Shown here: positions 38,067-43,509 of the stretch, one piece after another | How the letters are laid out: each line of letters begins with the position of its first letter | Numbering within the stretch: the first letter of the stretch is position 1 | Assembly (NCBI GenBank): GCA_028279705.1 | Contig: JANQNF010000012.1 | Location: 160,163 to 224,162 of the forward strand | Source: an archaeon | GTDB lineage: Archaea > Aenigmatarchaeota > Aenigmatarchaeia > QMZP01 > JAFGSV01 | Direction: 5' to 3' | Length of the DNA: 64,000 nucleotides | Notes under the pieces: generated by a model | What the model saw: only the letters and a program-made list of their open reading frames with translations | The model's database searches: none | What the model was told of the DNA's origin: nothing | Position numbers and translations under genes: made by a program

Positions 38067-41000
38067 TCACTTGATTGATTTTATTCCAGTCACGAAACCG
38101 GAAAGCTTCTTGGTCTTGTCTTTGGCCTCGTATGGATGCACGTTCTTGTCCACAAGTTTCATGAGAGTCTTTGGATCCCTGTAATAGAGCGATACGAACT
38201 CCGCCACGTTTTCATACCTGGTAACGTCATGTCTCTGCATCCACTCCAGCACTTTCTTGCGGTTTTCAAGCTCCTCTGTTATCTTCTGGTAGTTGAGGCC
38301 TTTTTCAAATGATATCTTTCTCAGGAGCTCTGATTCTGCGATCTTGCTGTCGAAACTATCGGTTGCGGGATTCCAGGTAAAGCTTTTGAGTGTCTTTGCC
38401 CTCCCGCTGTCGCTGTCGACAGACTGTATTTCAACGACTTCCTTGACCCTCCTGGCAGACTCTCCCCTTTCCCTTGATTTGATCATCACTATGAGAAGGT
38501 CCAGTGACTCCACGAGACTTGGCGATATCTCTATTGGTGGCGTCTCAAGCCTCTTTATGACGTCATCCACGGAACCGGCGTGTATGGTGCCTATGCTCGG
38601 GTGGCCGGAAGCCATCCCCTGGAACATGACGTAGGCTTCCTTGCCCCTGACTTCTCCCACTATCACGTAGTTTGGATTCTGCCTGAAAGACTCCTTGAGC
38701 AGCTCAAAGAGCGTGACCTCACCGTACCTTTTCCCAGAAGCGTCCGGAACGCCAAAGCCCGCCCTTGAAACGGCAGGTATCCAGTTGTCGTGTGGTAAAT
38801 TTAATTCCCTAGTATTGTGCAGGATTACGTTTGAGCATATAAATTTTTCCGTTCCCGGGACGGATATGTCATAAACTGTCCTTCTCTTTCTGGGCAGCTT
38901 GCTGACACTTTTCACCTTGTCCCATAGTATGTCGGAATGTGAAATGTCATTGAAGACGGATCCCTCCTTTGCTATTTCCTGCAGGTATTCCCTTCCAATG
39001 TTCTGCTTGCCCTGAAGATATGGCCAGCATATCTTATGGTGGTCGTTGACTTCAGACATCTGGTTTTTGGTAAGGGGAATAACATCCGAGCATGTATGGT
39101 GCGGTTTCTTGAGGCATATCTCAGCAAGTTTGGAATTCTTCCTTTCCTGTAGGAATCCCACATCTTTTTTGAATTTCATGACATTGTCGTGTGATGACAC
39201 CGACAAGTTTATGCAGCCGTCCTTTCTTTTGAAATCTGAAATCCTTGAAATTATACCCATCCTCAGGAGTACAGTCTGGATGTCGTGAAGCATCTTTAAG
39301 CTTTGCGAACTGCACGACACTTCGTTTTTCTTCACCCCACCGTCTGCACTGAAATAACCCTTCAACACTTCCCTCAGCTGCCCGTTGCTGAGCCTGAATA
39401 GCAAGTCGGGTATCCTCTTCGTGGCTGAATACCCGTCAATTCCGAGTACATTCTTCATAAGTTTGTACAGCACTGTGCTGTTTATGCCCATCGAAACCCC
39501 GTCATTCATCAAGGACATGTTCAGCCCCAGTTTTTCTGAAAATTCCGATACTATGTTCCTGCATTCCTTGTCACTGTTCGATATTATTACCCTGTTTGCG
39601 TTGTGGTTGTCATAGCTCCCATCACCGAGCCACAGCCCTGCGAGATTCAGAAACGTCCTGTCCAGTGGGAAAATCACGGGAACTGATCCCGTATTCTTGC
39701 TTTTGATACTCAACTGCACGAGTTCGCTTTTCTTAAACGATATCCCAGCTTCCTTGAGCAGTGGCACCTTTATTATCCCTCTTCTCTTGTACCACGCGTG
39801 GGTAGACTTGTTGATATTGAGGTCTTCGTGGCTCTTCTTCTGCAGCAGTTTCCTCACAGGTTCTCCTGTCAGGAAATCGTCGCTGAATGTACCGGCGAAG
39901 TCGAGCAAGTTTACGGAGGCCCTCCTTTCCCCGTCTATTGGCAGCATCCTCGGGACCGCGATGAACCTGTCCTTGAGACCTTCAGGTTTCGTCTCTTCAA
40001 TACCTTTCTCACCCCACGTGAACAGCGAATGGTCGGATGTGACCTTCACTATCCTGCCTGTCGAAGTGACTATTTTATAGATGTCCTTTTCCACGGAATG
40101 CTTGATGAGTTTTGAAGGCTTGACGAATCTTATCTTGTGATCTTTGCCCAGCGTCAGTATGGGGAGTCTGATATCGGAATCCACATATTCTTTTATAGTA
40201 GTCCTTCTTATCCCACCATCCTTTACTAGTATTTCCGAATCTTCGGTCACGCTATCCTCAATCGATACGATTTTAGCCTCAGGTGGTATGAAAAGCGTTA
40301 TTGCATTGAGCAGGCTGGTCTTTCCGGTACTGACACCCCCGCACGATAGTATGGATACCCCGGACTGCATGACAAGCCACAAGTACGACATCACGTCGGA
40401 AGATGCGGTCCCGAGGTTCATCAGCTCTATCGGCGACAGCGGGAACTTCCTAAACCTTCTTATGGAGAATGTCGGGCCCCTTGTCGTGACGTCCTTTGCA
40501 AGCGATGCCTGTATCCTGGACCCGTCCGGAAGCGACCCGTCCAAAAGCGGTCTCGCATAGGATATGTACCTGCCGCAGCGTTCCGCGAGCTTGACGACGA
40601 AATTGTTCAACTGGTCTATGTCCTTGTAAATGACGCTGGTTTCAAGCGAACCGAACCTCTTGTGAACGACGTATATTGGTGTCCCGATGCCGTCGCATCC
40701 TATGTCCTCTATGTACGGGTCGTGCATCAGGGGCTCTATCTCATTCACGCCAATGAAGTCCCTGAATATGTAATACATTATCTTTATGTACTCCTTTGTG
40801 GGAATCTGTATGTTCTCCTCCTCGAGTACCTTTTTGACCTTTCCTTCGAGATATGACATCGTGGCTCCCTCTTCGTCCAGCTTGGTAAGTTCCACGTCTA
40901 TGAGCTCCACGAGATCCTTCTTTATGTTGTCAAGCTTTTCCTGTTCGCTTTTTGTCAACACGGGTTCAATTATGTGATATTTCAAAGACTTCTTCTCAGG

Positions 41001-41258
41001 CATCCATTTGATGTTTGCCGATGCCAGAGGTTCCAGAAGCGGATAGTTAATGTCAAGATTCTTCACGTCATCCGTCTTTGGGAGCTCTATGAGATACCCA
41101 GGCTCCTTTATGACGAATTTGGGGTATTTCGTGGCTTCATGTTTCTTGAAAATGTTATGGACGGACTTGAGTTCTTTGAGAGAACCAAGCGCTTTTGTTG
41201 ATTTCAATTTCTCTAAATAATTCAGCTTCGACGACTTCAGGTTTTTCGGGGATTTCAT
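38067..41258 (-). CDS. Type II/IV secretion system ATPase interrupted by an in-frame intein
   Basis: Walker A SCGGVSTGKTSLLNAI; extein EAKIVSIED | TRELNLPHDNW; YVIVGEVRGKEAYVMFQGMASGHPSIGTIHAGS. Confidence 0.92.
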   Translation of the reverse strand: MKSPKNLKSSKLNYLEKLKSTKALGSLKELKSVHNIFKKHEATKYPKFVIKEPGYLIELPKTDDVKNLDINYPLLEPLASANIKWMPEKKSLKYHIIEPVLTKSEQEKLDNIKKDLVELIDVELTKLDEEGATMSYLEGKVKKVLEEENIQIPTKEYIKIMYYIFRDFIGVNEIEPLMHDPYIEDIGCDGIGTPIYVVHKRFGSLETSVIYKDIDQLNNFVVKLAERCGRYISYARPLLDGSLPDGSRIQASLAKDVTTRGPTFSIRRFRKFPLSPIELMNLGTASSDVMSYLWLVMQSGVSILSCGGVSTGKTSLLNAITLFIPPEAKIVSIEDSVTEDSEILVKDGGIRRTTIKEYVDSDIRLPILTLGKDHKIRFVKPSKLIKHSVEKDIYKIVTSTGRIVKVTSDHSLFTWGEKGIEETKPEGLKDRFIAVPRMLPIDGERRASVNLLDFAGTFSDDFLTGEPVRKLLQKKSHEDLNINKSTHAWYKRRGIIKVPLLKEAGISFKKSELVQLSIKSKNTGSVPVIFPLDRTFLNLAGLWLGDGSYDNHNANRVIISNSDKECRNIVSEFSEKLGLNMSLMNDGVSMGINSTVLYKLMKNVLGIDGYSATKRIPDLLFRLSNGQLREVLKGYFSADGGVKKNEVSCSSQSLKMLHDIQTVLLRMGIISRISDFKRKDGCINLSVSSHDNVMKFKKDVGFLQERKNSKLAEICLKKPHHTCSDVIPLTKNQMSEVNDHHKICWPYLQGKQNIGREYLQEIAKEGSVFNDISHSDILWDKVKSVSKLPRKRRTVYDISVPGTEKFICSNVILHNTRELNLPHDNWIPAVSRAGFGVPDASGKRYGEVTLFELLKESFRQNPNYVIVGEVRGKEAYVMFQGMASGHPSIGTIHAGSVDDVIKRLETPPIEISPSLVESLDLLIVMIKSRERGESARRVKEVVEIQSVDSDSGRAKTLKSFTWNPATDSFDSKIAESELLRKISFEKGLNYQKITEELENRKKVLEWMQRHDVTRYENVAEFVSLYYRDPKTLMKLVDKNVHPYEAKDKTKKLSGFVTGIKSIK
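38814..40253 (-). other. Intein (480 aa) with LAGLIDADG homing endonuclease domain
   Basis: Begins SVTEDSEILVKDGG, ends KFICSNVILHN followed by Thr; DOD motifs NLAGLWLGDGS and LKGYFSADGGV. Confidence 0.9.
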
Positions 41259-41262
41259 GAAC

Positions 41263-41526
41263 CTACCTTTTCTTTCTTCTGACAATGTGCCTGTGCCTGG
41301 CGCAGCCAGGGCATGCATACTGCTTGCTGTTCATCAGCGATACACCCCTGCCCTTTGTTCCGAGTTCTTCCTTCAGCAGAGGGTCTGTTATCCTGAAACC
41401 GCGAACAACCGAGAATGTCTTGTACTTCGGGACCTTCCTTCCGCAGAACGTGCACGTGACGAGCGTCTCTTTTCCTCTCCCCTGCCCGTGCTTCCATCCT
41501 CTCGAATATCCCTTATTGACTGGCAT
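41263..41526 (-). CDS. Zinc-binding small protein, probable ribosomal protein eS26
   Basis: GYSRGWKHGQGRGKETLVTCTFCGRKVPKYK...YACPGCARHRHIVRRKKR; two CxxC pairs and basic N-term. Confidence 0.5.
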   Translation of the reverse strand: MPVNKGYSRGWKHGQGRGKETLVTCTFCGRKVPKYKTFSVVRGFRITDPLLKEELGTKGRGVSLMNSKQYACPGCARHRHIVRRKKR

Positions 41527-41583: not shown

Positions 41584-43051
41584 TTAACCCTTGATCACGC
41601 CTACAGGTTCCATACGGCACACTTTCTTGCTCACATCAGCCCCATGTACGGAGTCGACAACCGCTTCCACGTCCTTGTATGCAAGTGGCGCTTCTTCTGC
41701 GAGGCTCTTTGGGTGTGGGCTCTTCGATTCTATGCCTTTTCCTGCAAGTTCCTGCTTCACTTTGTCGCCCCAGAATTTCTTTATTGCAGCGTGCCTGCTC
41801 ATAGCCCTTCCTGCACCATGTGCTGATGAACCGAATGTCTTGGAGAGTGCAGTTTCCGTTCCCCTGAGCAGGTAAGAACTCGTTCCCATTGTTCCTGCAA
41901 TTATGACAGGCTTGTCCGGGTATGATCTTGTTGCGCCCTTCCTGTGTACGTATAACTTTCTCTTCTTTCCATCTATATCGAATTCCTCAAGCTTTACGAT
42001 GTTGTGTGCTATTGCATAGACGGTCTTCATGTCCATATCTTCCCAGGTCCTTCCAAAAACCTTCTCAAACACCTCGCGTATCCATTTTGTCATGACAGCC
42101 CTGTTTGTGAAAGAATAATTCACTGCAGCCTTCATTGCAGAAAAGAAGTCCTGGCCTTCCTGTGACTGCGCCGGTGCACATGCAAGCTGCTTGTCCGGAA
42201 TCCATATATTATGCTTCTTCACTGCCTGTTCCTGTATCTTGAGATAGTCAGATGCTACCTGATGACCAAGTCCCCTGGACCCGCAATGTAGCATTATCAT
42301 AGACTGCCCGGGCTCCTTTATGCCCCACTTCCCTGCAGTATCATTATCGATAACATCCGTTACATTCTGTATCTCTAGGAAATGGTTGCCCGCACCGAGC
42401 GTGCCAAGCTGTGGCGCACCTCTCTTCTTCGCAAGGTCCGACACCTTCGAAGGATCAGCTCCTTCCATCCTTCCACCCTCTTCTGTTGCGGCTTTGTCAT
42501 CCTTTGTAACATAACCATTGTCGATCGCCCAGTCGACGCCCTTCACGAGCACCTCGTCCAGCTGTTCGCCTGAAAGCTTCAGCTTCCCCTTGCCGCCCAC
42601 ACCGACCGGTATCTTGTTGAACAGTTCGGATACAAGTTCCTTCTGGCGCTTCCTGACCTCTTCGGTGCTAAGATTCGTCCTTATCAGGTTTATTCCACAG
42701 TTTATGTCTTGGTCGACAGGAACATTATTCCCACCTAAAACCACATAAACCTGCGGAAATTATACCTTCCTTGTCATCGAAAGCCGAGACGGCCCCCATC
42801 GGCAAGCCATTTGGAGGTAAGACAGTATTTCTACTATCAAACAAACCCCAGTGCATGTCGGGGAGACCAACTACAGGTTCGACGACCCCAGGTAAGCAAG
42901 CAACATTTGTTAGCTGCTGTACCGCGTCTTCTTCTATGGCATCGAGAATTTTTTGGTTTGCAATTATTCTCGCATTCACTTTCATCTCTTTGCGTACAGT
43001 TTTCGGCAGCTTCCATTCAAAGTCGCTCACTTTTTCAAGTTTTTCCTTCAT
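41584..43051 (-). CDS. rtcB: RNA-splicing ligase RtcB, interrupted by two candidate BHB introns; 468 codons plus stop after removal of 61 nt
   Basis: N-part GLPDMHWG / [20 protein letters not shown] and C-part [13 protein letters not shown]...GGRMEGADP...GNHFLEIQ...HCGSRGLGHQVASDYL...SSAHGAGRAMSRHAA; (1468-61)/3 = 469. Confidence 0.9.
42709..42736 (-). other. Candidate BHB intron 2 in rtcB (28 nt)
   Basis: Outer helix TTTATGT/ACATAAA, central 4-bp helix GGTT/GACC, bulges TT|A and AA|G, inner helix GGTGGGAA/TTCCTGTC; removal joins ...GLCGF to DINCG. Confidence 0.85.
42811..42843 (-). other. Candidate relaxed BHB intron 1 in rtcB (33 nt)
   Basis: Central helix GGGG/CTCC, bulges TT|T and AA|A, inner hairpin GATAGTA-GAAA-TACTGTC; removal restores HWGYGLPMG. 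Confidence 0.75.
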
Positions 43052-43092
43052 AATTCCTCCATCGTTAATCTATTACTCACTGTTTATAAATT

Positions 43093-43509
43093 TCATATGT
43101 CAAGGCTCACCCTTGCAACGTACCCGTCAGCGGTCTTTTCGAAATTGTATTTGTAATAAGTAACGGCCTTGACTACGGTCTCGCCCTTCTCTGGAACCAT
43201 CTCCTCCCCGTATATCTTGGCCTTGATATGGTTCTCGTCGATTTCGGTTATCTCGAATTTCGAGAAGAACATGCTTTCTATGTCCACGAGGCCAATGAGT
43301 TCCTGGAGCCAGTTTATCATAAGTTCTTCTGCGCTTTCAGCCTCGACCGAAACTTCTATCGTCTTCTCCTGTGAGACCTTTTCCATCTGGCATATGACGC
43401 TGAACATGGCTTCCGCTGCATTTGTGAATACCTCCTTCAGATCCTTTCCGAAAGCCTCGAACATCACGTCCGATGTCAGGTCGTCTATGAACTTGTACTT
43501 CATGTTCAC
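43093..43509 (-). CDS. Archease (RtcB activator)
   Basis: KYKFIDDLTSDVMFEAFGKDLKEVFTNAAEAMFSV...ELMINWLQELIGLVDIESMFFSKFEI; directly upstream of rtcB. Confidence 0.9.
   Translation of the reverse strand: MNMKYKFIDDLTSDVMFEAFGKDLKEVFTNAAEAMFSVICQMEKVSQEKTIEVSVEAESAEELMINWLQELIGLVDIESMFFSKFEITEIDENHIKAKIYGEEMVPEKGETVVKAVTYYKYNFEKTADGYVARVSLDI

Follow-up and report, generated by a model that had tools for sequence, protein, structure and literature searches.

The tRNA-splicing ligase gene rtcB of an aenigmatarchaeal genome is very probably interrupted by two real introns that depend on EndA and RtcB for their removal. The gene lies in a 64,000-nt stretch of DNA (the window) from a lineage of tiny, mostly uncultured archaea, and inserts at the same two sites recur in rtcB genes of two DPANN phyla. 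Since the interruptions are of the tRNA-splicing type, the ligase appears to be required for its own synthesis.

The interrupted rtcB gene of the window

A preliminary description of this DNA had split rtcB between two open reading frames, and a renewed check of the frames and of the excision reproduces its coordinates, insert lengths and frames. The N-terminal part (42725..43051, 108 aa) ends at a TAA within intron 2, and the C-terminal part (41584..42744) lies in another frame. Excision of both inserts (Table 1) leaves the 1407 nt originally given, although the accompanying figure of 469 codons counts the stop, and 468 aa are encoded. The spliced product matches the Pfam RtcB family (E=1e-154) and P. 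horikoshii RtcB (1uc2) over its length. It also aligns without gaps, at 72-84% identity, to the products of the intronless genes of G001, G003, G004 and G005 and to the partial RtcB of G002; relatives of the same genus have intronless sites. The nearest named RtcBs are from Ca. Aenigmatarchaeota, a DPANN group. A second intact rtcB, which the preliminary description had named as evidence against introns, was not found elsewhere in the 92%-complete assembly, leaving the window copy as the sole rtcB. The window gene combines the hallmarks of a protein-coding BHB intron like that of cbf5, namely a coding interruption, a frame restored by excision, and intronless relatives. Downstream of rtcB, a gene for a secretion/pilus-type ATPase (38067..41318, minus strand) appears to carry an intein, flanked by VSIED and TRELNLPH; its counterparts in L003 and L005 are intein-free and read VSIEDTRELNLPH.

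Table 1. Positions in the window of rtcB, its parts and the neighboring archease gene.
Feature	Position	Strand	Description
rtcB	43051..41584	minus	three exons, two inserts
rtcB exon 1	42844..43051	minus	M1 to HWG and the first base of the Tyr codon
Intron 1	42811..42843	minus	33 nt, relaxed BHB; based on fold, BHB score and position (T^AY class)
rtcB exon 2	42737..42810	minus	between intron 1 and intron 2
Intron 2	42709..42736	minus	28 nt, canonical BHB; based on fold and contig-wide BHB scan
rtcB exon 3	41584..42708	minus	DINCG to stop; from the DINC motif on, all residues that bind metal or GMP
Archease, RtcB cofactor	43093..43509	minus	directly upstream of rtcB; Pfam PF01951, E=1.8e-36

At both junction pairs, two 3-nt bulges surround a 4-bp helix, in canonical form in intron 2 and in relaxed form in intron 1, and the exon borders of both introns coincide with the predicted cuts between the second and third bulge nucleotides. 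In intron 2, the central helix pairs 42742-42739 (GGUU) with 42714-42711 (GACC), with the bulges UU^A and AA^G, a 9-bp inner helix, and an outer helix in the exons (GUUUAUGU/ACAUAAAC). The MFE and centroid folds agree on the outer helix, the bulges, the 4-bp central helix and the inner helix. The standard cut gives GGTTTT^GACATA, which reads GF^DINCG, and this is the same frame-restoring junction that was found independently from the protein. When both strands of the 278,530-nt contig were scanned under strict criteria (a 4-bp central helix, inner and outer helices of at least 6 bp, and an intron of 22-60 nt), the single match was intron 2. Because the predicted cuts in the sole strict BHB of the contig fall exactly at the frame-restoring position, chance is excluded for this intron.

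The BHB of intron 1 is the weaker of the two. Its central helix joins 42849-42846 (GGGG) to 42816-42813 (CUCC), the bulges are UU^U and AA^A, the inner helix is interrupted and has a GAAA loop, and the outer helix is weak. The RNAfold z-score is -2.8, and the BHB score is 11 vs. 9.5 for the runner-up. The junction GGGGTT^...^ATGGC restores HWGYG, and its position (the T^AY class) is common to introns in many other genomes. A group I/II intron was rejected for either insert, as both are too short and a search of 42400..43200 gave no Rfam match of that type, even with E values up to 5 allowed.

The genome encodes EndA, RtcB and archease, the last directly upstream of rtcB as had been described. 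Together with the BHB geometry, the cut sites, the intronless relatives and the covariation reported below, this strongly supports the earlier proposal of two archaeal-type introns. EndA is encoded twice, both times away from rtcB. One gene product, of 400 aa, is homologous along almost its entire length to 4fz2, the epsilon-type enzyme of ARMAN-2 (E 1e-92), and the other is a 190-aa alpha-type protein (1a79, E 7e-32). The ARMAN-2-type epsilon EndA has a broad substrate range and cuts both BHB and bulge-helix-loop RNAs (PMC12397907). An epsilon-type enzyme as a prerequisite for rtcB introns is unsupported, as the families f13, f16, f20 and f26 bear introns and have only alpha-length EndA matches. 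The window's assembly, with its two EndA types, measures 1.9 Mb, about twice its genus relatives; three of these (G001-G003) likewise have more than one EndA match each.

Recurrence and history of the inserts

The preliminary description had treated the interrupted rtcB as a single oddity, a view that does not survive comparison with related genomes, which include genes both with and without insertions. An RtcB profile scan of 41 genomes of the order, and then of 160 of the phylum, yielded further rtcB genes with a break at the corresponding position. Site-A inserts were sought with a DNA pattern (PDxH - 20 to 50 nt - G[FL]P[IVM]G), which matched 22 of the 160 Aenigmatarchaeota genomes. With G047 and G120, which have an insert at site B only, this makes 24 of 160, spread over 10 of 32 families. 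In the Woesearchaeota/Nanoarchaeota phylum the pattern matched 30 of 380 genomes, about 27 of them real. No rtcB introns were found in 93 genomes of Diapherotrites (one unrelated pattern match) or in 296 of Thermoplasmatota (15 unrelated matches). False pattern matches were removed from the set (L173, L190, L195, L196, L203, L216 and the Thermoplasmatota loci L256-L270). The survey covered these four phyla.

In total, 48 site-A inserts of 16-34 nt were reconstructed, together with 23 site-B inserts, all of 12-33 nt but one, which measures 165 nt; 21 genes have inserts at both sites. Site A (H^WGYGFP) and site B (GGIGF^DINC) are both active-site positions. The predicted cuts occupy four exact positions within the H-W-G-Y codons of site A and about six within GG-I-G-F-D-I-NC of site B, and across all 48 and 23 introns the cut that is best for the BHB yields the conserved protein motif.

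The smallest introns in the set, in L179, L182 and L183, are identical 12-nt inserts at site B (TTTAAACCTTAG, with an in-frame TAA). In structural terms, this intron is predicted to form only a bulge-helix-loop, and these inserts are possibly among the shortest introns proposed. To our knowledge, introns of 12-18 nt would rank among the smallest proposed anywhere. At the other extreme, the rtcB gene of G120 (L144) has a site-B insert of 165 nt whose ends form a BHB; it is roughly five times the length of any other rtcB intron found. Long in-frame insertions follow DINC, beside the intron hotspot, in rtcB of about 15 Aenigmatarchaeota genomes (e.g., G006, G018, G072, G100 and G126). The open frames measure 830-1018 aa, and the insertions are presumably inteins; in G018 one occurs together with two introns. 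In G002 (G002:C1, CP070804.1, 317-333 kb), the rtcB halves lie 15 kb apart on opposite strands. A genuinely split gene was rejected here, as the scaffold has a run of N inside and the arrangement is probably a scaffolding error.

The pairing of the central helix is maintained across these inserts. It is formed in 88% (site A) and 99% (site B) of cells, vs. 32-58% after the partner strand is displaced by 1-3 nt. The pairing values are somewhat inflated as each excision is the best-scoring of the few that restore the protein, although window intron 2 allowed only one. When the 3′ strands were shuffled among all site-A or all site-B sequences, the observed pairing of the central or inner helix was never reached in 5000 shuffles, a result that is not a probability because the sequences are related. 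Within the T^AY class, exon and intron strands covary (AAGG-CCTT, GGGG-CCCT, CAGG-CCTG, TAGG-CCTG, TTGG-CCAG and AGGG-CCCT).

In-frame stops are also enriched. A stop in the frame of the upstream exon occurs in 40 of 45 scorable site-A introns, vs. an expectation of 22.2 derived by shuffling the introns and counts of 25 and 16 for the two remaining frames, and in 25 of 26 of the pattern-only set of the second phylum, where 12.4 are expected; the relatedness of the sequences limits these statistics. Window intron 1 is an exception, and the stop comes in intron 2. The enrichment suggests translation of unspliced messages, with an advantage in cutting their products short.

On a tree of 91 RtcB genes, the presence of introns changes at least 12 times, with six changes forced by well-supported branches. 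The window introns are probably recent within their clade because the gene nests among intronless relatives in a supported clade. L182 (G421) and L183 (G492) have the same 12-nt intron at site B, and about 80-90% of the gene is common to both. Their site-A introns are unrelated and positioned 7 nt apart, each with exon flanks resembling those of another relative. This points to intron replacement by recombination with co-conversion of the flanks, and introns appear to have been repeatedly gained, lost and replaced at the two motifs. The phenomenon also seems specific to rtcB, the only split gene among 198 orthologs when 363 G001 genes were compared with about 0.5 Mb of the window's genome, a comparison of one genome pair over about a quarter of the assembly and of non-overlapping genes. 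Leftover internal stops, in the five of 11 cases looked at, lay in 5′ extensions or apparent antisense ORFs, never in BHB inserts.

Possible roles of the introns and alternative readings

In the proposed mechanism, the rtcB mRNA would fold into two BHB hairpins, EndA would cut each bulge between its second and third nucleotides, and RtcB with archease would join the three exons, which would make the HWGYG and GFDINCG motifs whole again. An unspliced message would be read into intron 2 and stop at 108 aa; as had been proposed, the TAA in this frame precedes the metal-binding Asp and Cys. Since the unspliced product ends before these residues, no active RtcB would be expected without splicing. 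RtcB synthesis would thus be conditional on EndA and on RtcB that is already active, a self-licensing loop whose sign would be positive because little active RtcB would mean few finished rtcB messages. The in-frame stops may have been selected to silence unspliced messages. The autoregulation proposed earlier would follow from the logic of this arrangement, and the gene specificity and the enrichment of in-frame stops are indirect hints of it. A selected licensing role is the favored regulatory role of the introns, although we would put it somewhat short of an even chance. More tentative still is the broader proposal that two DPANN phyla have repeatedly reinvented a self-licensing circuit, in which introns would be kept or replaced under selection and stops would silence unspliced mRNA.

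Persistence without any regulatory function, which also accepts the introns as real, has close to an even chance. The inserts would then be short, neutral or selfish derivatives of mobile introns that settle where the sequence of the gene is most conserved, in a gene whose own product ensures that exons are joined, and that spread by recombination with co-conversion of flanks. The patchy distribution, the many presence changes on the tree and the nesting of the window gene among intronless relatives all fit such a history, as do the shared site-B intron and swapped site-A flanks of L182 and L183 and the use of the same DINC motif by inteins. The restriction to one of 198 orthologs and the enrichment of in-frame stops suggest selection instead, although the stops could be selected merely for limiting damage from unspliced mRNA.

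Readings in which one or both inserts are not introns fare far worse. Retention of intron 1, to be translated as an 11-residue insertion containing LFDSRNTVLPPN with only insert 2 removed, is improbable. It draws on the weaker BHB and on the fact that no other site-A insert both has a length divisible by 3 and lacks an in-frame stop, but it would interrupt the invariant HWGYG motif of RtcB, and the position and central helix match those of 22 other introns of the T^AY class. Translational bypassing, in which the ribosome would skip the inserts without RNA splicing, is less probable again. Short hairpin-forming inserts with frequent stops, and with the frame restored when they are skipped, would suit it. 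It fails because take-off and landing triplets match in none of 48 site-A inserts (in window intron 2 they are TTT and CAA) and most phase-1 inserts would give Asp or Asn rather than the invariant Tyr, and it leaves the BHB geometry with its exact 3-nt bulges unexplained. The frames are broken in the raw sequence, as they would be in a pseudogene or through an assembly error, yet these explanations retain next to no probability and are ruled out by the sole-copy status, the intact conserved exons and the independent recurrence. An error of assembly, which had been named as a way for the intron proposal to fail, is untenable because dozens of independent assemblies carry BHB inserts at the same two sites.

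Relation to known splicing systems

No report of rtcB introns was found in the open-licence literature searched. A 2020 study names cbf5 as the only earlier archaeal mRNA BHB intron besides its own 5′-UTR case (PMC7714728), and further protein-coding genes are mentioned as having predicted but unconfirmed introns (PMC2738675). Archaeal coding-sequence introns are known essentially from cbf5. The second such gene would be rtcB, in which two hotspots hold dozens of introns across two phyla. It offers a comparative system for the gain, movement and loss of BHB introns, and a host gene that encodes the very ligase splicing needs makes the self-dependence directly testable. Automated pipelines will annotate many rtcB genes of DPANN archaea as broken or miss them altogether.

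The crenarchaeal cbf5 pre-mRNA introns (Watanabe 2002; Yokobori 2009, PMC2738675) are the closest parallel. Like those of rtcB, they are short (16-44 nt) and lie in coding sequence at a catalytic motif, in their case inside the catalytic Asp codon (PMC2738675). They are likewise cut between bulge nucleotides 2 and 3, often have an unconventional BHB, and are gained and lost among relatives. The rtcB introns differ in gene and phyla, in occupying two hotspots with about ten exact positions, in a host gene that encodes the ligase needed for splicing, in lengths down to 12 nt, and in their enrichment of in-frame stops. Archaeal tRNA introns (canonical BHB, relaxed BHB and BHL) have the same RNA geometry and are presumably processed by the same EndA and RtcB, whereas the rtcB inserts sit in an mRNA reading frame. 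The 5′-UTR case shows an mRNA to be an EndA substrate with an effect on expression, but in a UTR and in another gene (PMC7714728). RtcB inteins occupy the same DINC motif, yet they are spliced at the protein level and are hundreds of residues long, while the window inserts measure 28-33 nt. Finally, HAC1/XBP1 mRNA splicing is also non-spliceosomal, and the exons flanking the 26-nt XBP1 intron are joined by RtcB (PMC10630183). Unlike the rtcB case, it is eukaryotic and stress-induced, the cuts are made by IRE1, and the spliced message is not that of the ligase's own gene.
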